A stretch of DNA of 64,000 nucleotides, from the NCBI RefSeq assembly GCF_900117415.1, contig NZ_FPEI01000006.1:1302001-1366000 (forward strand), given 5' to 3'. The notes beneath the pieces were generated by a model. That model made no database searches. It saw only the letters and a program-made list of their open reading frames with translations, and had not been told where the DNA came from. Position numbers and translations under genes: made by a program. Each line of letters opens with the position of its first letter. The first letter of the stretch is position 1. The stretch comes from Hyphomicrobium sp. CS1BSMeth3 (GTDB taxonomy: Bacteria; Pseudomonadota; Alphaproteobacteria; Rhizobiales; Hyphomicrobiaceae). Positions 3,432 through 62,784 of the stretch are shown here, piece after piece.

Positions 3432-4739
3432 CTAGAGGATGAACTTCGAGAGGTCCGCGTTGCGTGCGAGATCACCGACGCGTGAGCGCACATAGGCGCC
3501 ATCCACCACGACCGTGTTGCCGCCGCGATCGGACGCATCGAACGAGATGTCGTCCAGCACGCGCTCGACAACCGTATGCAGGCGCCGCGCACCGATATTC
3601 TCCACGGTCGAGTTCACGGCGACCGCGATGTCGGCAATGGCATCGATGGCATCGTCGGTAAAGCTGAGCGTCAGGCCTTCGGTTCCCATGAGCGCGATGG
3701 TTTGCTTGACGAGGCTCGCCTGCGGCTCGGTGAGAATGCGGCGGAAGTCCTCGCGCGTGAGCGGCTTCAGCTCGACGCGGATCGGCAGGCGACCCTGCAG
3801 CTCCGGGAGCAGGTCCGAGGGTTTGGCCAGATGGAAGGCACCCGAGGCGATGAACAGAATGTGGTCGGTTTTGATTGGGCCGTACTTGGTCGCGACCGTC
3901 GTTCCCTCGATGAGCGGCAGGAGATCGCGCTGCACGCCCTCACGGCTCACATCCGCCCCACCACGGCCCGCCCCATCGCTGCGCGAGCAGATCTTGTCGA
4001 TCTCGTCGAGGAACACGATGCCGTTGTTCTCGACGAGCTTCACCGCTTCCACGGCGATCTGGTCGCTGTCGAGCAGCTTGTCGCTCTCCTGGCCGATGAG
4101 CTGCTCATAGCTCTGGCCGACCGTCAGGCGCCGCGTCTTCATGCGCTGGCCAAAGGCCTTGCCGAGCATCTCGCTGATATTCACCATGCCGACCTGACCG
4201 CCCGGAATGTCGAAGGTCGGGAAGCCCGGACCGCTGTCGGCAACCTGGATCTCGATCTCCTTGTCGTTGAGCTCATTCCCCCGGAGCCGCTTGCGGAACA
4301 CCTCGCGCGTCGAGGGCTGCGCGCCGGGGCCGACGAGGGCATCGAGCACGCGCTCCTCGGCATTCTTCTCGGCGAGCGCCTTGACCTCGCGGCGCTTCGT
4401 ATCGCGGACGAGGCCGATGCCGACCTCGACGAGATCGCGCACGATGCTGTCGACGTCCCGGCCGACATAGCCGACCTCGGTGAACTTCGTCGCCTCGACC
4501 TTGAGGAAGGGCGCGCCCGCAAGCCGCGCCAGCCGGCGCGAGATCTCCGTCTTGCCGCACCCCGTCGGGCCGATCATGAGGATGTTCTTCGGCTGGACTT
4601 CCTCGCGCAGCTCGCCTTCGAGCTGCTGGCGCCGCCAGCGATTCCTGAGTGCGATCGCGACGGCCCGCTTGGCGTCCTGCTGGCCGACGATATAGCGATC
4701 GAGCTCGGAGACGATCTCGCGGGGGGAGAAATTCGACAT
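3432..4739 (-). CDS. hslU: ATP-dependent protease ATPase subunit HslU
   Basis: 435 residues, the usual length. HslU (ClpY) is the AAA+ unfoldase that feeds substrates to the HslV peptidase. Walker A is GPTGCGKTE, Walker B is [10 protein letters not shown], an intermediate I-domain lies between them, and the C-terminus ends LSKFIL, the tail that inserts into and activates HslV. The start is preceded by a divergent intergenic region. hslV, normally next to hslU, is not found on either side: downstream is folB on the opposite strand and upstream is boxC. Confidence 0.97.
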
Positions 4740-6675: not shown

Positions 6676-6679
6676 CAAT

Positions 6680-6802
6680 TCTCCTTCTCCCCGTCCTTAC
6701 GGGGAGAAGGTCGGGATGAGGGGCGGGAGCTTGCGTGACGTTCGACTATGCCGCCGCCCCTCACCCTAGCCCTCTCCCCGCAAGAGCGGGGAGAGGGGAA
6801 GA
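6680..6802. repeat. Dispersed RPE-like inverted-repeat element between boxC and boxB
   Basis: About 120 bases filling the boxC-boxB gap. It has two outer hairpins, TTCTCCCCG/CGGGGAGAA on the left and CTCTCCCCGC/GCGGGGAGAG on the right, joined by GGGATGAGGGGCGGGAG and GCCCCTCACCCTAGCCCTC. A second copy in reverse orientation lies after ilvC (59818-59941). Such CTCACCCTAGCCCTCTCCCC elements are widely dispersed in rhizobial genomes. In this operon it could form strong hairpins in the boxCB transcript and change the boxC:boxB ratio; that effect is inference. Confidence 0.8.
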
Positions 6803-13003: not shown

Positions 13004-13135
13004 CCGTTTCCGATCAGTTGCATAGGGCCCATGCGCCGGCCGGGACCTTGCGGCCGACAGAGGCGCGAACTAGGTTGGCCGCAAAGCTCGGGCGCCTGCT
13101 TCGCCCGGAAATCAATCGAGGAGCCCGAAGCCACC

Positions 13136-14185
13136 GTGACCTTCGCTGAAGGCGTCGCCGCCGCTGTCGGCCGCACCCCCCTCATCAAGCTGCGCCGCGT
13201 CTCCGAGGAGACCGGCTGCACTATCCTCGGCAAGGCCGAGTTCATGAACCCGGGCCAGTCGGTCAAAGACCGCGCGGCCCTCTTCATCATCCAGGATGCC
13301 GTGGCCAAAGGCCGGCTGCGGCCCGGCGGCACGATCGTGGAAGGCACGGCGGGCAATACGGGCATCGGCATCACCGTGATCGGCAATGCGCTCGGCTACC
13401 GCTCGGTGATCGTCATTCCCGAGACTCAGGCCCAGGAGAAGAAGGACGCGCTGCGCCTTCTCGGCGCCGAGCTCGTCGAGGTGCCGGCCGTCCCCTACAA
13501 GAACCCGAACAACTACGTGAAGTACTCGGCCCGTCTTGCCGAAGCCCTCAACAAGTCGGAAGCGAACGGCGCCATCTGGGCCAATCAGTTCGACAACGTC
13601 GCCAACCGCGAGGGACACATCGAGACGACGGCGCCCGAGATCTGGAACGACACGGACGGCAAGGTTGATGCGTTCGTCTCCGCCGTGGGATCGGGTGGCA
13701 CGCTCGCGGGCGTCGCCATGGGCCTCAGGGCCAAGAACCCGAAAATCCAGATCGCCCTCGCCGACGTACCGGGCGCGGCGCTGCACAGCTACTACACGAC
13801 GGGCGTCCTCAAGGCCGAGGGTTCGTCCATCACCGAGGGCATCGGCCAGGGGCGCATTACGGCGAACCTCGAAGGCCTCACGGTCGATCACTCCTTTCTC
13901 ATTCCCGATGCCGAGAGCGTGGCGATCGTCTTCCAGCTTCTGGAGGAAGAGGGCCTGTGCGTCGGCTCGTCCTCGGGCGTGAACATCGCAGGCGCCGTGC
14001 GCCTCGCGCGCGAGATGGGGCCGGGCCACACCATCGTGACGCTGCTCTGCGATTACGGCACGCGCTATCAGTCCAAGCTCTTCAATCCCGAGTTCCTGCG
14101 CTCGAAGAACCTTCCCGTGCCGAACTGGCTCGCGAACCCGCGCGCGCCGGTGCCGACCGTGTTCGAGCCCGTCGAGGGAAGCTAG
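13136..14185 (+). CDS. cysK: Cysteine synthase A (O-acetylserine sulfhydrylase)
   Basis: 349 residues from GTG 13136. The frame is open back to 13031, but the upstream residues are Arg-rich and unlike the family. This PLP enzyme makes L-cysteine from O-acetylserine and sulfide. The PLP lysine lies in NPGQSVKDRAAL, the substrate loop is EGTAGNTGIG, and the phosphate-binding Gly loop is AVGSGGTLAG. It belongs to the longer (about 345 residue) cysteine synthase subgroup with the C-terminal YGTRYQSKLFNPEFLRSKNL segment. Its TAG stop codon is part of the terminal CTAG of the composite repeat that follows. Confidence 0.93.
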   Translation: MTFAEGVAAAVGRTPLIKLRRVSEETGCTILGKAEFMNPGQSVKDRAALFIIQDAVAKGRLRPGGTIVEGTAGNTGIGITVIGNALGYRSVIVIPETQAQEKKDALRLLGAELVEVPAVPYKNPNNYVKYSARLAEALNKSEANGAIWANQFDNVANREGHIETTAPEIWNDTDGKVDAFVSAVGSGGTLAGVAMGLRAKNPKIQIALADVPGAALHSYYTTGVLKAEGSSITEGIGQGRITANLEGLTVDHSFLIPDAESVAIVFQLLEEEGLCVGSSSGVNIAGAVRLAREMGPGHTIVTLLCDYGTRYQSKLFNPEFLRSKNLPVPNWLANPRAPVPTVFEPVEGS

Positions 14186-14348
14186 TGTGATGATCGAGAA
14201 ATTCGCCACGTCTCGCGGTTCAGCATCGAGCGAATTTCTCGATCTGAATCACACTAGCAAACCTACGATTCTAGTGTCCCTCTTGATTCCGAAGTTCGCT
14301 CGGGACGCCAGCATCGAGGTCAAGCGAACTTCGGAATCGGGACACTAG
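14182..14348. repeat. Composite CTAG-bounded palindromic element, copy 1 (167 bp)
   Basis: Hairpin A spans 14182-14257 (76 bp), a 13-bp spacer follows, and hairpin B spans 14271-14348 (78 bp). All four ends read CTAG. A has arms around GATCGAGAAATTCG / CGAATTTCTCGATC, with an extra TCA in the distal arm that gives it a direction. B has arms TTCCGAAGTTCGC / GCGAACTTCGGAA. The first CTAG supplies the cysK stop codon; the last ends four bases before the next start codon, and GGGA in the B arm is the only Shine-Dalgarno candidate for that gene. Copies of the same build lie at 26866 and 62618. Confidence 0.92.
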
Positions 14349-19274: not shown

Positions 19275-19408
19275 GTCCATAAAGGCGGGTGGGTTCGGGA
19301 GGGTGTCCCCCGGGCGGAGCGCGAGGCTGGCCTCGCTCGCGCTGAAAGCGCGAACAGGGCTGCCGCCTCGCGCTCCGCCCGGGGGACACCCCCGAACCCC
19401 CGTCTTTT
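19275..19408. repeat. GC-rich gene-end repeat, paired inverted copy acting as bidirectional terminator
   Basis: Two arms (GGGTGTCCCCCGGGCGGAGC ... and its complement GCTCCGCCCGGGGGACACCC) face each other between convergent stop codons and would form a very long hairpin. An AAAGG tract is on the left and CTTTTATT on the right, so it fits a terminator for both genes. The core CGGGGGTGTCCCCCG recurs at 25590, 35413 and 53424, each time near a stop codon. Confidence 0.8.
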
Positions 19409-20654
19409 ATTGATTTCGCACGACAGGCCGCGCGGTCTGCTCGAGGTACACGACGATGGCCTCGGAAATTGCCGCGCCTGTGACGCGCTCGGCGAGCGAG
19501 ATCGCGGGCGATGCCGTCACACCGACGACGATCGGCCCCTGGGGCCCGGCGATCGCGTCAACACCTGCAAGTTCCAGCCCGAGCACACGCGCCGCACGCT
19601 CGGCAACGGCGCGCGTCGCCTCGATTGCCGCCGCGTCGTCCGTGCGCCATTCGGCTTCGGCGTGGATGTCATCGCGTTCACGTGACGTGCGCGACATCGC
19701 CGCCACGGCACGGTTGCCGACGATCGTGTGGCGAACGAGCGGGCCCAGCGCATGACTGCTGAAGCCATCGGCGAAGAGATGCCGGTCGGCAGCGTCTGGA
19801 TTTGTCGCAGCACTGCTGACGGCAGCGGCCGGAACAGGAATGCCCGCGCGCGCGAGAAGCTGGCGCGTCGCGAGCGGATCGGACACGCGCAGCAGCGGAT
19901 CGGGTCCATTGATGACGACCGCGCCGAGCGTCTCGAACTGGCGCGCCACGGCTGCCGAGAAAGTCGGCGTGCCGCGACCAGGCCGCACAATCAGCGCGTC
20001 GCAATGCGGCGCGGTCTCGCCATCGAGCAGGATCGCCGGTTCGTTCGTGTCGATGAAGAGCGAGACGCGGTCGCGGTCGACCATGACGAGCTTGTGGCCA
20101 CGTCGCTCAGCAACACGCTGGATGCGCCGGTTGGTGGCATTGTCGGGGCGGCGCGTGAGAAGGCCGATGGTGAGCGGGCGGCGATCCTCGGCCGTGCGCG
20201 TCGGAATGTCGTATCGACGATAGCTGAGGCGCGGCTGGCGAAAGGACGTCGCAGGATCGACGAGCATGTCGTCCTGGATGGCCTGGCGGCCGATCAGCAT
20301 GCGGTAGCTCATGGTCTCGCGGTTGGCGAGCGTGAGCTCGACCGGCCACGTGCGCTCGCCGAGCTTGAGAGCCGTGCGGATGACGTAGCGCATCTCGCTC
20401 TCGCCATTCGAGCTCGTCACCTCGCGATGATCGATCACCTCGGCCGTGCAAATGACCTTCACGTCATTGCGGCCAGGAATGGGATGAACGCCGAAGCGCA
20501 CCATGCGACGGGATGCGGATCCGAAGGGCTCGACGAAGAAGGCGTGCAGCGCCGAGGTTTTGGCGCCGGTGTCGACCTTCGCCTTGATCGCGGGCAGATC
20601 CAGATCGGGCAGGCCGACCCATTCCTCCCAGCCGAGCACGAAGGCCTCAGACAC
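19407..20654 (-). CDS. Retropepsin-like (PF05618) domain fused to degenerate RimK-type ATP-grasp
   Basis: 415 residues from GTG 20654, chosen for its GAGGAAAGGGA ribosome site. Residues 1-150 form the PF05618 domain (annotated as ATP-dependent zinc protease, related to RimB and retropepsins), with the DTGAKTSAL motif at residues 28-36. From residue 160 the sequence follows RimK (IGLLTRRPDNATNRRIQRVA, then VGNRAVAAMSR). The glycine-rich ATP loop region is about 40 residues shorter than in RimK as I recall it, and the metal-binding ExN motif near the end reads VVGVTASP, lacking both Glu and Asn. The second domain is therefore probably a non-catalytic RimK relative. RimK adds Glu tails to ribosomal protein S6 and RimB modulates it. 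Confidence 0.8.
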   Translation of the reverse strand: MSEAFVLGWEEWVGLPDLDLPAIKAKVDTGAKTSALHAFFVEPFGSASRRMVRFGVHPIPGRNDVKVICTAEVIDHREVTSSNGESEMRYVIRTALKLGERTWPVELTLANRETMSYRMLIGRQAIQDDMLVDPATSFRQPRLSYRRYDIPTRTAEDRRPLTIGLLTRRPDNATNRRIQRVAERRGHKLVMVDRDRVSLFIDTNEPAILLDGETAPHCDALIVRPGRGTPTFSAAVARQFETLGAVVINGPDPLLRVSDPLATRQLLARAGIPVPAAAVSSAATNPDAADRHLFADGFSSHALGPLVRHTIVGNRAVAAMSRTSRERDDIHAEAEWRTDDAAAIEATRAVAERAARVLGLELAGVDAIAGPQGPIVVGVTASPAISLAERVTGAAISEAIVVYLEQTARPVVRNQ

Positions 20655-25589: not shown

Positions 25590-25665
25590 TCAAAAAGACG
25601 GGGGATCCGGGGGTGTCCCCCGGACGGAGCGCGAGGCCGTGGCCTCGCTCGCGCCAAAGGCGCGA
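25590..25665. repeat. GC-rich gene-end repeat, single copy
   Basis: Lies 12 bases after the heparinase stop. It begins with an A-rich stretch, then GACGGGGGATCCGGGGGTGT and CCCCCGGACGGAGCGCGAGG, and finishes with GCGCCAAAGGCGC, a small hairpin. It shares its core with the copies at 19275, 35413 and 53424. It probably ends the heparinase transcript. Confidence 0.75.
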
Positions 25666-25803
25666 TCGCACGCCCTCACATGCATTGCAGGACCGCTCAA
25701 ATAGGCCCCTCCGGCACTAGCCATCACTGCCCTTGCGTGAAATATTAGTGCTGTAGATTCATGGGCGAGAGCGGCCGAAGCCGCCGAGTGGGAGAGACGC
25801 GCA

Positions 25804-26874
25804 TTGTCAGCCGACTGGAAGGGCGCCATCGACTGCGACGTGCATCCGCACGTCCCGAATATCGATGCGCTCAAGAAGCACATGAACGAGTACTGGCGCG
25901 AGACCGTCGAGGTGCGCGGCATTACGGCGTTCGAGTCGGTTGCTTATCCGCCGAATGCGCCCATCACGCTGCGGCCTGACTGGCGCGCCGACAAGGCCAA
26001 GGGCCGTGCGCGCGCCGATACGGATGCCGGACGCACCGCTGCTGCGCTCATGGACCGGCACGGCTTTGCCCATTCGATCCTGAACTGCCTCTACGCGGTC
26101 CAGCTCATCCGCGACGAGCACATGGCCGCGGCCTTCTGCAGCGCCGTCAACGACTGGATGCGCGCCGAATGGCTCGACCGCGATCCGCGCTATCGGGCTT
26201 CAATCGTGCTGCCGCTGCAGAACCCGGAACTGGCCGTCGAGGAAATCGAGCGTTGCGCTGCCGACAAGCGCTTCGTGCAGGTGCTCGCGCTCGCCATGGG
26301 CGAACAGCCGCTCGGCAAGAGCCACTTCTGGCCGGTTTGGAAGGCCGCCGAGAAGCACGGCCTCGCGATCGGCATCCACGCAGGCTCGAGCTACCATCAC
26401 GCGACGACCGGCTCCGGCTGGCCGAGCTATTACCTCGAAGACTATGCCGCGCAGTCGCTCGCCTTTCACACGCAGCTCGGCTCGTTCATCGCCGAGGGCG
26501 TGTTCGTCAAGTTCCCGAAGCTGAAGCTCGTGCTGATCGAGTCCGGCGTGACGTGGATCGGCCCCTACCTCTGGCGGCTTTCGAAATTCTGGCGCGGCGT
26601 TCGCCTTGAAGTGCCATGGATCGATCGCTCGCCCATCGAGTTCGTGCGCGATCATGTGCGCCTGACCATCCAGCCGTTCGACGCCCCGGCTTCGGGCGAA
26701 ACCGTCGGGCGGCTCATGGACCAGCTTCAATCCGATGAGATGCTGCTCTTTGCGAGCGACTTCCCGCACTGGCAGTTCGACAACGACGACATGATGCCCG
26801 TCGGCATCGATGCGACGCTGCGCAAGAAGATCCTGATCGACAATCCTCTCGCAACCTACGCGCGACTAGTGTGA
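25804..26874 (+). CDS. Amidohydrolase-family protein (PF04909-type)
   Basis: 356 residues from TTG 25804 with GGGAGAG upstream. A TIM-barrel metal hydrolase/decarboxylase: the first metal site is DCDVHPHVP (DxH), later His in IGIHAGSS and Asp in LLFASDFPHWQFD. The family includes ACMSD-like and dihydroxybenzoate decarboxylases as well as hydrolases. Its last two codons and TGA stop (CTA GTG TGA) come from the composite palindromic repeat that follows. It precedes a second amidohydrolase and a Rieske protein, suggesting a small aromatic or cyclic-acid catabolic operon. Confidence 0.87.
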   Translation: MSADWKGAIDCDVHPHVPNIDALKKHMNEYWRETVEVRGITAFESVAYPPNAPITLRPDWRADKAKGRARADTDAGRTAAALMDRHGFAHSILNCLYAVQLIRDEHMAAAFCSAVNDWMRAEWLDRDPRYRASIVLPLQNPELAVEEIERCAADKRFVQVLALAMGEQPLGKSHFWPVWKAAEKHGLAIGIHAGSSYHHATTGSGWPSYYLEDYAAQSLAFHTQLGSFIAEGVFVKFPKLKLVLIESGVTWIGPYLWRLSKFWRGVRLEVPWIDRSPIEFVRDHVRLTIQPFDAPASGETVGRLMDQLQSDEMLLFASDFPHWQFDNDDMMPVGIDATLRKKILIDNPLATYARLV

Positions 26875-27032
26875 TGATCGAGAAATTCGTCACATGTCGC
26901 GGCACGGTACAGAACGAATTTCTCGATCTGAATCACACTAGCAAAGCTATGACTCTAGTGTGGTTCAAATTCCGAAGTCCGCCTCCGACGCCCGCCGCGA
27001 TGTGGTGGCGGACTTCGGAATTAGCACACTAG
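26866..27032. repeat. Composite CTAG-bounded palindromic element, copy 2 (167 bp)
   Basis: Hairpin A at 26866-26941 (76 bp), 13-bp spacer CAAAGCTATGACT, hairpin B at 26955-27032 (78 bp): the same lengths as copy 1. The B arms read GTCCGC / GCGGAC where copy 1 has GTTCGC / GCGAAC, a paired change that keeps the stem. The left end encodes the last codons and stop of the amidohydrolase gene before it. The right end abuts AGGAGG, the ribosome site of the next gene. Confidence 0.92.
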
Positions 27033-33807: not shown

Positions 33808-35409
33808 GTGCGATTCGTGGCAGAGCCAGTCCGCGCCGGCCGCGCCGGCGCCAGCAACAACCCGGAACTGACCGTTACCGAGCTCTCCAATGCCATCAAG
33901 CGGGCACTGGAGGACAACTTCGGCTTTGTCCGGCTCCGGGGTGAGATTTCAGGCTATCGGGGACCGCACGCCTCGGGCCACTGCTACTTCGCGCTCAAGG
34001 ACGACAAGTCCAAGATCGAGGCTGTCATCTGGCGCGGTGTCTTCCAGAAGCTCCGCTTCAAGCCCGAGGAAGGCCTCGAGGTCATCGCAACGGGCAAGGT
34101 GACGAGCTATCCCGGCTCGTCGAAATATCAGATCGTCATCGAGGCGCTGGAGCCCGCGGGCGTCGGCGCGCTCATGGCGCTACTCGAAGAGCGCCGGCGC
34201 AAGCTCGCCGCCGAGGGGCTCTTCGCGGAGGAGCGCAAGCGGCCGCTGCCGTTCCTGCCGCGCGTCGTCGGCATCGTCACCTCGCCGACCGGCGCCGTCA
34301 TCCGCGACATGCTTCACGGCTTCGAGGAGCGCTATCCGGCGCACGTCATCGTGTGGCCCGTGCGCGTGCAGGGCGAGACGAGCGCCAAGGAAGTGGCGGC
34401 GGCCATCCGCGGCTTCAATGGTCTGCCGGTCGATGGCCCCGTGCCGCGCCCTGACGTGCTGATCGTCGCGCGCGGCGGCGGCAGCCTCGAGGATCTCTGG
34501 GGCTTCAACGAGGAAATCGTCGTTCGCGCCGCGGCCGAGAGCGCTATTCCGCTCATCTCGGCGGTCGGCCACGAGACGGACTGGACACTCATCGATCTCG
34601 CCGCAGATGCGCGCGCGCCGACGCCGACGAAGGCCGCCGAATGGGCCGTGCCAAAACACGGCGAGCTCGTCGAGCGCATCGGCGATCTCGCGCTGCGGCT
34701 CAGAAAATGCATCAATCGCACCATCGAAGCTGCGCGCACGCATTTGAAGGCCGCCGCACGCGGCATTCCTCGTCTCGAAGACCTGCTCGCACTGCCGCGC
34801 CAGCGCTTCGATGCCGTGGAGCGTCGCCTTGCGCGCGCGCTCGATGCCAATACGCAGGCGCACGGCAAGCGCCTTGCGCGCGTCGAAGCCCGCTTCCAGC
34901 CGCGTCTCGTCACGCAACTCCTCGAGCGCGATCGCCAGCGTCTGGAACGCGCCCAGCGCGCCGGCCTCACGGCACTGGCACGACGTACATCGACGCAGCG
35001 CACGCGCTTCGAGCGCTTTGCTGCGCGTCTGACGCCGCACCCGCTCCGCCATCGCGTCGTGCGTCTCGACGAGCGCCTCGTAGATCTGTCGGGGCGCCTG
35101 CGGCAAGGATTTGCGAGCCGACTGGTACTCGAGCGGCGCGCGCTGGATGCGCAAGCGCAGATGCTCGCCTCGCTGAGCTATCAGAGCGTGCTCAAGCGCG
35201 GCTTTGCGGTCGTGCGTGACGCAGAGGGACGTGCCGTGCGCAGCGTTTCCACTCTCGCGATCGATGCACGCGTGGGCCTTGAGCTTGCCGATGGACGCGC
35301 GAGCGCCAGCATCACAGCGGTGGATGCCGCTGAGAGCAAGCCCGCAGAGACGCCGAAGCCGCGCGCACCGAAACGCAGCGGCCCGGATGGGCAAGGCTCG
35401 CTCTTCTGA
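33808..35409 (+). CDS. xseA: Exodeoxyribonuclease VII large subunit
   Basis: 533 residues from GTG 33808; a GTG at 33817 is possible. The N-terminal OB fold (LTVTELSNAIKRALEDNFG, VRGEISGYRGPHASGHCYF) is followed by the catalytic region VGIVTSPTGAVIRDMLH and ARGGGSLEDLWGFNEE, then a long coiled-coil region rich in Arg/Leu and a C-terminal YQSVLKRGFAVVRD segment. It forms the nuclease that degrades single-stranded DNA to oligonucleotides, together with the small subunit XseB, which is not adjacent. The tail after residue 490 is Pro/Lys-rich. The divergent purD-xseA arrangement is familiar from Rhizobiales. Confidence 0.96.
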   Translation: MRFVAEPVRAGRAGASNNPELTVTELSNAIKRALEDNFGFVRLRGEISGYRGPHASGHCYFALKDDKSKIEAVIWRGVFQKLRFKPEEGLEVIATGKVTSYPGSSKYQIVIEALEPAGVGALMALLEERRRKLAAEGLFAEERKRPLPFLPRVVGIVTSPTGAVIRDMLHGFEERYPAHVIVWPVRVQGETSAKEVAAAIRGFNGLPVDGPVPRPDVLIVARGGGSLEDLWGFNEEIVVRAAAESAIPLISAVGHETDWTLIDLAADARAPTPTKAAEWAVPKHGELVERIGDLALRLRKCINRTIEAARTHLKAAARGIPRLEDLLALPRQRFDAVERRLARALDANTQAHGKRLARVEARFQPRLVTQLLERDRQRLERAQRAGLTALARRTSTQRTRFERFAARLTPHPLRHRVVRLDERLVDLSGRLRQGFASRLVLERRALDAQAQMLASLSYQSVLKRGFAVVRDAEGRAVRSVSTLAIDARVGLELADGRASASITAVDAAESKPAETPKPRAPKRSGPDGQGSLF

Positions 35410-35412
35410 AAG

Positions 35413-35546
35413 TCATAAAAGACGGGGGTTCGGGGGTGTCCCCCGAGCCGGGTTACAGGGCGGCAGCCCTGTTCGCGCCTTCGGCGCGACGGGGGCTAGC
35501 CCCCACACCCCTACTGGGAGGGACACCCTCCCAGACCCGCCCGTCC
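35413..35546. repeat. GC-rich gene-end repeat, extended multi-hairpin copy
   Basis: Fills the gap between the convergent xseA and DMT transporter genes. It starts AAAGTCATAAAAGAC, then a run of hairpins: CGGGGGTGTCCCCCG (35431-35445), GGGCGGCAGCCC, GCGCCTTCGGCGC, GGGGGCTAGCCCCC and TGGGAGGGACACCCTCCCA, ending in TTATTTTGTTTTTG inside the last codons of the transporter gene. It is likely to stop transcription in both directions. Confidence 0.8.
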
Positions 35547-38495: not shown

Positions 38496-39053
38496 ATGCA
38501 AAGCAAGGACGAGATCGTATCGTTCCTCGGCCAGCAGGCCAGTATCATGCGCCTGCTGACGGCGGTCGCCGCACTCAACATCAAAGATTGCTGGATCGGA
38601 GCGGGAACGATCCGCAACGCCATCTGGGATCAGTTGCACGGCTTCCCCGCGAGGCCCATCCCGGGCAGCGATGTCGATGTCGTCTTCCACGATCCGAGTG
38701 ACGTGAGCCCTGCGCGGGACCTCGAGTTGCAGAGGCGGCTGTTTGCGGACATGCCAGACGCCGCCTGGGAGGTGCACAATCAAGCCCGCATGTGGAGTAC
38801 GAACGGTGACCCTCCCTACGGGAATACGGCTGATGCCCTCCGATGCTGGCCCGAGACCGCCACGGCCATCGCGGCGCGCCTTGAGGATGGGTGCGTGGAG
38901 ATCCTCGCCCCGCACGGTCTGCAGGATCTGCTCGGGCTGATCGTTCGCCCTACGCCGGCGTTCGCCGCCAGACGCGAAGAATATTGCGCGCGCCAGGCTG
39001 CCAAGAAGTGGTGTGAGCGCTGGCCCAAGCTGCGGTTCATCACCCCATGCTAG
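38496..39053 (+). CDS. Nucleotidyltransferase-family protein (PF06042-type)
   Basis: 185 residues from ATG 38496; an in-frame TTG at 38487 is less likely. Family marks are IGAGTIRNAIWDQLHGFP and GSDVDVVFHDP, the GS...DxD nucleotidyltransferase signature of the PF06042 family. Biological role unknown. The TAG stop codon is part of the CTAG that opens the solo palindromic element immediately after the gene. Confidence 0.85.
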   Translation: MQSKDEIVSFLGQQASIMRLLTAVAALNIKDCWIGAGTIRNAIWDQLHGFPARPIPGSDVDVVFHDPSDVSPARDLELQRRLFADMPDAAWEVHNQARMWSTNGDPPYGNTADALRCWPETATAIAARLEDGCVEILAPHGLQDLLGLIVRPTPAFAARREEYCARQAAKKWCERWPKLRFITPC

Positions 39054-39125
39054 CGTGATTCAGATCGAGAAATTCGCTCGGTACCGCGCCCCGAGATCTG
39101 GCGAATTTCTCGATCATCACACTAG
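39050..39125. repeat. Solo hairpin A of the CTAG-bounded element family, copy 3 (76 bp)
   Basis: A 76-bp hairpin of the same length and arms as hairpin A of copies 1, 2 and 4 (GATCGAGAAATTCG / CGAATTTCTCGATC), with CTAG at both ends but without the spacer and hairpin B. The TCA-bearing arm is on the left here, the reverse orientation relative to the upstream gene compared with copies 1, 2 and 4. It still provides the TAG stop codon of that gene. Confidence 0.9.
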
Positions 39126-53423: not shown

Positions 53424-53500
53424 TCAGAAAAACGGGGGTTCGGGGGTGTCCCCCGAGCGGGGTGAAGGGGCGGCAGCCCCTCTCGTGCCGGAGGCACGAA
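53424..53500. repeat. GC-rich gene-end repeat, single copy
   Basis: AAAAACGGGGGTTCGGGGGT followed by GTCCCCCGAGCGGGGTG, then the hairpins GGGGCGGCAGCCCC and CGTGCCGGAGGCACG. It lies just beyond the moaA stop, but here the shared core has the opposite orientation to moaA transcription, unlike the copies at 25590 and 35413, which read with the gene they follow. Confidence 0.75.
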
Positions 53501-59817: not shown

Positions 59818-59941
59818 CCATCCCCTCTCCCCGCTTGCGGGGAGAGGGCTAGGGTGAGGGGCGGCGGCATACGCCGACGTTGCGCAAGCTCCCGCCCCTC
59901 ATCCCGACCTTCTCCCCGTAAGCACGGGGAGAAGGGGAAGT
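59818..59941. repeat. Dispersed RPE-like inverted-repeat element after ilvC
   Basis: Same element as at 6680-6802 but in opposite orientation: CCCCTCTCCCCGCTTGCGGG, then GGGCTAGGGTGAGGGGCGG, a variable middle, GCCCCTCATCCCGACCTTCT and a closing hairpin CTCCCCGTAAGCACGGGGAG. It starts seven bases after the ilvC stop and probably terminates or stabilises that transcript. Confidence 0.8.
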
Positions 59942-60041
59942 GGGTGCCCCACGCTGACGCTGTCCGTATGGCGGACGCGGGCATGGCACTACCGCAGAAG
60001 GCGATAGCACCTCTTCCCAGCAGCCCGCGGCAACAAAAGAA

Positions 60042-62617: not shown

Positions 62618-62784
62618 CTAGTGTCCCGCTTCCGAAGTTCGCCGGTATCCGATGCTAGTGTCCCAAGCGAACTTCGGAAGCAGAAGGGACACTAGAATCA
62701 CAATCTCGCTAGTGTGATTCAGATCGAGAAATTCGCTCGATACCGTGCCGCGACATGTGGCGAATTTCTCGATCATCACACTAG
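62618..62784. repeat. Composite CTAG-bounded palindromic element, copy 4 (167 bp), inside glcDEF
   Basis: Read on the minus strand: hairpin A (62709-62784, 76 bp), a 13-bp spacer and hairpin B (62618-62695, 78 bp), the same build and direction relative to transcription as copies 1 and 2. It fills the whole glcD-glcE gap. Its outer CTAG gives the TAG stop of glcD, and its other end lies two bases before the glcE start. Hairpin B carries an extra internal CTAGTGTCCC, possibly a trace of recombination between arms. Confidence 0.92.

Follow-up and report, generated by a model that had tools for sequence, protein, structure and literature searches.

Paired CTAG-footed hairpins of Hyphomicrobium sp. 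CS1BSMeth3 look like a new variety of miniature mobile element

Architecture of the window copies

The 64,000-nucleotide stretch of Hyphomicrobium sp. CS1BSMeth3 DNA analyzed here (the window) contains 167-bp palindromic units with CTAG at their ends, which raises the question of whether they are a defined mobile element and, if so, how such an element is moved. A first-pass annotation had reported three copies with an identical layout of a 76-bp hairpin (A), a 13-bp spacer, and a 78-bp hairpin (B), each hairpin bounded by CTAG, and this layout holds for all three (Table 1), with CTAG at four of the four hairpin feet in each copy. A fourth element of the window, a solo A hairpin, was absent from that list. 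CTAG is scarce, as had been supposed, with 37 occurrences in the window versus 86.5 expected from dinucleotide shuffles; 15 of the 37 fall in the four elements (three composites and solo A), and the frequency outside them is 0.35 per kb.

Table 1. Coordinates of the composite elements and the solo hairpin in the window
Feature	Position	Strand	Detail
Copy 1	14182-14348	+	76 + 13 + 78 bp
Copy 1 hairpin A	14182..14257	+	outer arm 14182-14205, loop 14206-14230, inner arm 14231-14257
Copy 1 hairpin A extra bases	14245-14247	+	TGA, on inner arm
Copy 1 spacer, 13 bp	14258..14270	+	own-genome consensus CAAGATTATGATT
Copy 1 hairpin B	14271..14348	+	inner arm 14271-14298, loop 14299-14324, outer arm 14325-14348
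Copy 1 hairpin B extra bases	14281-14284	+	TCTT, on inner arm
Copy 2	26866-27032	+	76 + 13 + 78 bp
Copy 2 hairpin A	26866..26941	+	
Copy 2 spacer	26942..26954	+	
Copy 2 hairpin B	26955..27032	+	subtype B2 (CTAGTGTGGT..)
Copy 3	62618-62784	-	76 + 13 + 78 bp
Copy 3 hairpin B	62618..62695	-	
Copy 3 spacer	62696..62708	-	
Copy 3 hairpin A	62709..62784	-	
Solo hairpin A	39050..39125	-	fourth element of the window

Hairpin A is organized as a 24-nt outer arm, a 25-nt loop, and a 27-nt inner arm, and hairpin B as a 28-nt inner arm, a 26-nt loop, and a 24-nt outer arm. Copy 1 has a predicted RNA folding energy of -86.3 kcal/mol versus a shuffle mean of -45.7 (sd 4.1, n = 200), with none of the 200 shuffles as stable, and it folds into two separate hairpins with a z score of about -10 with both RNA and DNA parameters. 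An Rfam search of the window gave no matches above the gathering score. The arms of A and B had been regarded as unrelated apart from the outer CTAGTG, but this is incorrect: the outer arms align gap-free and are identical at 17 of 24 positions, and both hairpins have a 24-nt outer arm and a 27- to 28-nt inner arm. Beyond CTAGTGT, 10 of 17 positions are identical, a value reached by a fraction of 0.00135 of 20,000 shuffles, and the outward-facing ends read TGT..ACA adjoining CTAG. Given the gap-free match, A and B resemble paralogous hairpins in a face-to-face arrangement.

The elements sit close to gene ends, as judged from ORF lists for the window. Copy 1 ends a PALP-family gene (13031-14185) and lies 4 bp before an alanyl-tRNA-editing-like gene (14353); an Amidohydro_2 gene ends inside copy 2 (at 26874), with a second Amidohydro_2 gene 9 bp beyond the element (27042); copy 3 provides the end of an FAD-oxidase gene (62781), with an FAD_binding_4 gene following after 2 bp, both on the minus strand; and an NTP_transf_6 gene terminates in solo A, at 39053. 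Genome-wide, the terminal CTAG supplies the stop codon of a neighboring gene in 23 of 86 composites, according to rough codon-based ORF calls that misassigned at least copy 1. None of the 86 was scored inside an open frame, a weak result, since an insertion that splits a gene would leave two apparent neighbors. The window also carries another inverted-repeat family (6676-6796 and 59822-59942; 121 nt, 89% complementary, with CCCCGC-type hairpins and one CTAG each) and a G+C-rich repeat family beginning AAAGACGGGGGTTCGGGGGTGTCCCCCGAGC.. (19301-19417, 25594-25668, 35408-35489, and 53428-53499).

Copy number, range, and insertion sites

From the constant length and the divergent loops, the first-pass annotation had proposed a defined unit, perhaps mobile, that should be present in dozens of same-layout copies in this genome. 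The genome (6.02 Mb in six contigs) does hold at least 86 distinct composites of one layout after removal of double fetches. The mobile unit is supported by copy number, by sites that are empty in congeners, and by CTAG as the clearest target, but the loops are not free sequence. They are about 80% identical to their own consensus, so that the constant length partly reflects common descent. A profile search of the stretches fetched around pattern matches, double fetches included, gave 96 rows, of which 84 are hairpin A, spacer, and hairpin B in one polarity (44 A+B+ and 40 B-A-), together with four pairs with one hairpin turned, five solo A hairpins, and three solo B hairpins; the polarity of A and B is therefore fixed in 84 of 88 pairs. 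Pattern searches of the genome with up to three mismatches found 80 places for A (81 rows, a single palindromic place being entered twice) and 68 for B (69 rows, one double), and the reversed control patterns gave no matches for either hairpin. BLAST with copy 1, for which 40 of 149 first-look candidates were scored, gave at least 41 matches of 165 to 167 query bases among the 83 own-genome matches listed.

Composites of this genome share a mean identity of 84%, the closest pair being 95.8% identical. In G006 (JAIEQJ01), identical composite copies sit at different loci, and movement there is therefore more recent. A search of related genomes, also proposed earlier, gave matches in 18 of 59 relatives (19 of 60 genomes counting the source genome), comprising 18 of the 35 relatives of the same genus or family, and the 24 relatives belonging to different families of the order have none; in four of the matching relatives (G013, G017, G023, and G025), the match is single and weak. 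Among the matches listed, the exact A pattern occurs in records titled Hyphomicrobiaceae (JALHOW01 and JALHMB01) and Hyphomonadaceae (JAIEQJ01), with other titles naming Hyphomicrobium, Rhizobiales/Hyphomicrobiales, Xanthobacter, and Pseudomonadota MAGs. The composite has no match in plasmid and phage records (distant mode), and the exact A-hairpin pattern has none in viral contigs; the exact B pattern found four viral contigs with related hairpins, one of which is an array. On the IMG/VR contig L208, positions 3844-4172 hold a run of four hairpins built on the same plan, of which two share one CTAG, with spacers in both orientations.

Ten of the 12 tested sites are empty in at least one congener (copy 1 and nine of 11 further sites, the latter taken from 16 prepared sites and compared in G002-G004, with 20 regions out of 33 matching rows examined). 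The copy 1 flanks are matched also in G011 and G018, and the junctions were read in G001-G004, where the site is empty, with CTAG in G002 and CTGA in G001, G003, and G004. The site orthologous to solo A in G002 is a single CTAG, and the empty sites of L002 in G002 and L016 in G003 are exactly CTAG, giving, with copy 1, four clear cases; L008 is also empty, and its CTAG in G002 is equally readable as an upstream stop codon plus a 7-nt gap and hence ambiguous. Other empty junctions are CTCG, CTCG, and TTAG for copy 2, CTGC for L003, and CTTA for L023, and the L013 junction has diverged, with no clear 4-mer. For copy 3, two relatives are empty without CTAG or a clear 4-mer and G003 is occupied; L022 was found occupied only (G002-G004), and L005 has no match in G002-G004. 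The clear empty sites carry one CTAG and the source genome's copies carry two, the net insert being 163 bp. There is thus good evidence that the element is mobile, and CTAG is its target where the junction is clear; relatives with non-CTAG empty junctions may have drifted.

Hairpin plan, feet, and covariation

The spacer-side arm has extra bases (mostly three or four), roughly 10 nt away from its CTAG foot, in 356 of the 361 hairpins of types A and B, and none of the 361 has extra bases on the outer arm. Among 185 distinct A hairpins, 178 have three extra inner-arm bases, three have six, and four are symmetrical; the 176 B hairpins have four extra bases in 121 cases, three in 46, five in seven, and two in one, with one symmetrical. 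These numbers come from a scan of CT/CC-footed hairpins across all of the DNA examined, with strand taken from the profile match, and because the extra bases themselves influence that match, what supports their side independently is that A and B keep a fixed polarity. Another 14 hairpins in the scan include nine that follow the same plan with clearly different sequences: two each in L054, L199, and L208, and one each in L076, L205, and L209. They include a CTAAAGC hairpin pair in L054, found again in L199, which in L054 is embedded in an A-B composite where A meets the spacer; a G002 composite matching L054 on one flank is without the pair. The CTAAAGC arm has GAAATTC in common with A, and these different-sequence hairpins may be related to A by descent, so that a shared plan is not necessarily a sign that shape is recognized. 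Hairpins of 80 to 88 bp of the GTGGGGGAGGTTAGG type (L055 8572-8651, L064 4346-4427, and L146 3571-3658) form a further repeat family.

Among 82 copies in the source genome, the A foot is CTAG in 55 and the B foot in 64, with GTAG in two A feet and one B foot. The A foot deviates from CTAG in 27 copies; it complements the inner foot of the same hairpin in 20 of them and equals the B foot in three, and the corresponding numbers in relatives are 7 and 1 of 22, symmetrised copies being left out of the comparison. The own-genome figures argue for feet that belong to the hairpins, and those of the relatives less so. The foot figures are not decisive, because ten own copies have CTAG outside and CGAG inside, and these could be target-derived feet awaiting correction.

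The arms diverge less than the loops. Within the source genome, identity to the consensus is 95 to 97% for the arms and about 80 to 81% for the loops and spacer; in 11 orthologous comparisons, differences amount to 96/1,120 positions (8.6%) in arms, 37/141 (26.2%) in spacers, 423/3,199 (13.2%) in flanks, and 127/556 (22.8%) in loops, the last being inflated because L211/L199 has a reversed A loop. The orthologue set is 11 of 18 rows, with L105, L120, and L157 dropped as second fetches of L215, L211, and L214, and with L108 (one flank), L246 (a nested case), L258/L081 (a weak one-sided match), and L266 (solo A) also dropped; it keeps L214/L081 on one matching flank and uses L077 twice. One orthologous insertion in two species (L035 1501-1667 and L048 6309-6472) has identical loops with flanks that are 14% different, a pair that does not fit a simple clock.

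Changes in the arms are often paired. The orthologous comparisons contain 11 double Watson-Crick changes, where chance would give about 1.2; two further double changes are of other kinds, and 40 cells are broken on one side. Among the 86 own copies, double compensated changes number 29 in A (300 shuffles: mean, 6.1; maximum, 12) and 32 in B (300 shuffles: mean, 3.0; maximum, 8), and broken-pair cells number 52 in A (85 in shuffles) and 77 in B (119 in shuffles), with column shuffles that do not keep the relatedness among copies. From the excess of double compensated changes over shuffles, pairing tends to be maintained after insertion, through either selection or arm-to-arm repair; some selection is favored, because repair without bias would not by itself be expected to lower the rate of change in the arms. 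The covariation could also stem from template switching in palindromes, of which reversed spacers and loops and symmetrised copies would be expected products. The spacer is in reverse orientation in a G006 copy and in the L076 pair, the B loop is reversed in L201, and like arms are found in A of L048, L049, and L199 and in B of L014 and L053.

Mode of mobilization and relation to known elements

An IS630-type mobilizer had been suggested, but PF13358 (DDE_3) is undetected in the source genome at an E value of ≤0.001, as are PF01797 (Y1) and PF00665 (rve), with positive controls. PF01797 is also undetected in 9 of 10 element-bearing relatives, G006 among them, the exception being G007. Nor was an insertion sequence with ends like A or B found: no autonomous copy (A, gene, B) was seen, and the solo hairpins are without a partner within the stretches examined. 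The Y1 gene of G007 has an internal TAG and is part of an ISMex34-like IS200 (L205 1356-2010, G007:C23), whose left flank is CTAG and whose right end abuts a composite-like hairpin pair. In the ISMex34-like group, the left-flank 4-mer scored by eye is CTAG in five copies, CTAA in one, and CTTA in one (seven scorable copies, L272 and L278 having no readable left flank), and a CTAR-targeting Y1 system therefore exists in related bacteria. That this transposase is the mobilizer is very improbable despite the shared CTAG target and its position beside a composite, as by eye the IS ends are unlike the A and B hairpins and show no sequence shared with the composite ends, its gene has the internal TAG, and it is the only Y1 detected in the 10 element-bearing relatives. 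Because 15 of the 37 window CTAGs sit in elements, any CTAG-targeting IS would be expected to land there, and an IS200 next to a composite is no evidence of mobilizing it.

We consider it somewhat probable that the composite is a non-autonomous REPIN/BIME-like element with an anatomy of its own, probably recognized as folded hairpins. It consists of two mirror-image imperfect hairpins flanking the 13-bp spacer, each with a 10-bp foot starting with CTAG, (mostly) three or four extra spacer-side bases, a further stem of about 14 bp, and a loop of about 25 nt. At the clear empty sites it has entered CTAG, leaving the 163-bp net insert flanked on both sides by a CTAG foot; copies would be kept where little harm is done, often with the terminal TAG as the stop codon of a neighboring gene. 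An enzyme acting in trans may recognize the folded hairpins (the extra bases and the CTAG foot) in single-stranded DNA and cut beside CTAG, as Y1 enzymes do at REP and IS200 ends; it would now be absent from the source genome or belong to a family other than Y1, DDE_3, or rve. Retained hairpins may benefit the host, for instance through protection of mRNA 3' ends, or may be repaired arm against arm. Recognition of folded hairpins is favored because hairpins of different sequence share one plan, but the absence of a detected Y1 gene in the source genome and in nine relatives counts against this reading, all the more in G006, where the identical copies imply recent movement. Also against it are the non-CTAG empty junctions, the broken pairs, and the inverted arrangement of A and B, which the ends of canonical IS200/IS605 elements do not have.

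One CTAG before insertion and two after fit both the single-strand (REP/IS200-like) route and a double-strand DDE route, and it is quite possible, though on balance doubtful, that the element is a classical MITE. A DDE transposase would then treat the two outer arms as terminal inverted repeats and bind them in double-stranded form, with the hairpin shape only a by-product and the duplicated target being either the 4-bp CTAG or TA within C-TA-G. The inverted, similar outer arms and the TGT..ACA ends adjoining CTAG agree with this, the one CTAG at clear empty sites and two in own copies would be a 4-bp or TA duplication, and the deviating A feet of relatives are mostly unmatched by the inner foot. 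IS630 prefers CTAG, IS481 uses NCTAGN, and the IS5 and IS701 groups use YTAR. Against it, DDE_3 and rve are undetected in the source genome, and duplicated 4-mers should agree at both ends, whereas a deviating A foot seldom equals the B foot in either the own copies or those of relatives. Most deviating own A feet are instead complementary to A's inner foot, although arm-to-arm correction after insertion could yield the same. Nor would binding of terminal repeats call for the extra bases to stay on one side in hairpins of different sequence, as they do. An old, vertically inherited, and immobile functional element (a terminator, mRNA-end, or nucleoid site) would account for the constraint on arms between orthologues, the lack of any own composite pair above 95.8% identity, and the stop codons supplied to neighboring genes; it is very improbable, being contradicted by the sites empty in congeners, and the identical copies at different G006 loci need copying and insertion.

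Several known systems are similar in part. As described in excerpts of PMC3116915, REPINs are likewise inverted palindrome pairs with a conserved spacer, many copies, and compensatory changes, are non-autonomous, and occur mostly as doublets, and the inverted doublet with a conserved spacer is found here too. Unlike the REPINs of those excerpts, each palindrome here is its own 76- to 78-nt hairpin with CTAG feet and extra spacer-side bases, the usual foot is not the GTAG of REPIN/RAYT systems or the CGTC of the second REP superfamily, and a RAYT (Y1_Tnp) gene is undetected in the source genome. The element behaves like a REPIN or BIME but, for want of a GTAG/CGTC foot as the rule and of a detected RAYT, is not filed as one. 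REP/BIME sequences with TnpA_REP, in the portions of PMC8266576 and PMC3733652 consulted, share the bulged hairpin, a foot tetranucleotide, polarity, hetero-dimers, and mosaic arrays (compare L208), but the present element differs in size and tetranucleotide, and no Y1 enzyme was detected here. In the same portions, CGTC REPs are common in alphaproteobacteria, lack a dedicated transposase, and have 8- to 9-bp stems; the strings "CTAG" and "Hyphomicrob" are absent from PMC3733652. RUP, NEMIS, and ERIC are named in an excerpt of PMC3733652. Bacterial MITEs such as these are similar in length, palindromic ends, short target, and often intergenic location, but the present element has two separate hairpins in fixed polarity, non-identical ends, and no parent IS found. 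It is a MITE in the broad sense: short, non-autonomous, and precisely inserted, with empty sites in relatives. Correia elements are also bacterial MITEs, and the RIME mosaic elements of Rhizobium are intergenic, with large palindromes, in Hyphomicrobiales, a general description that the present element resembles. Three short arm strings have no match in the open-licence PMC papers searched, and no paper describing the element was found among the matches listed in that literature; the element looks like a new variety of miniature mobile element.

A more tentative suggestion is a superfamily defined by shape more than by sequence, with widely different arms but a CTAG-type foot, a 10-bp stem, extra spacer-side bases, and mirror pairing in common. 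In bacteria in which the known hairpin transposases were not detected, it would be moved by an enzyme of a kind not yet described that reads structure, perhaps the product of a host gene, and would come under host constraint later. The prevailing view is that REPINs require RAYT transposases, and here hairpin pairs with good evidence of mobility are abundant in genomes in which no Y1 was detected. G006, where identical copies occupy different loci, would be a natural genome in which to seek the enzyme, and the several arm sequences with one bulged anatomy are a natural experiment on what a mobilizing enzyme reads.
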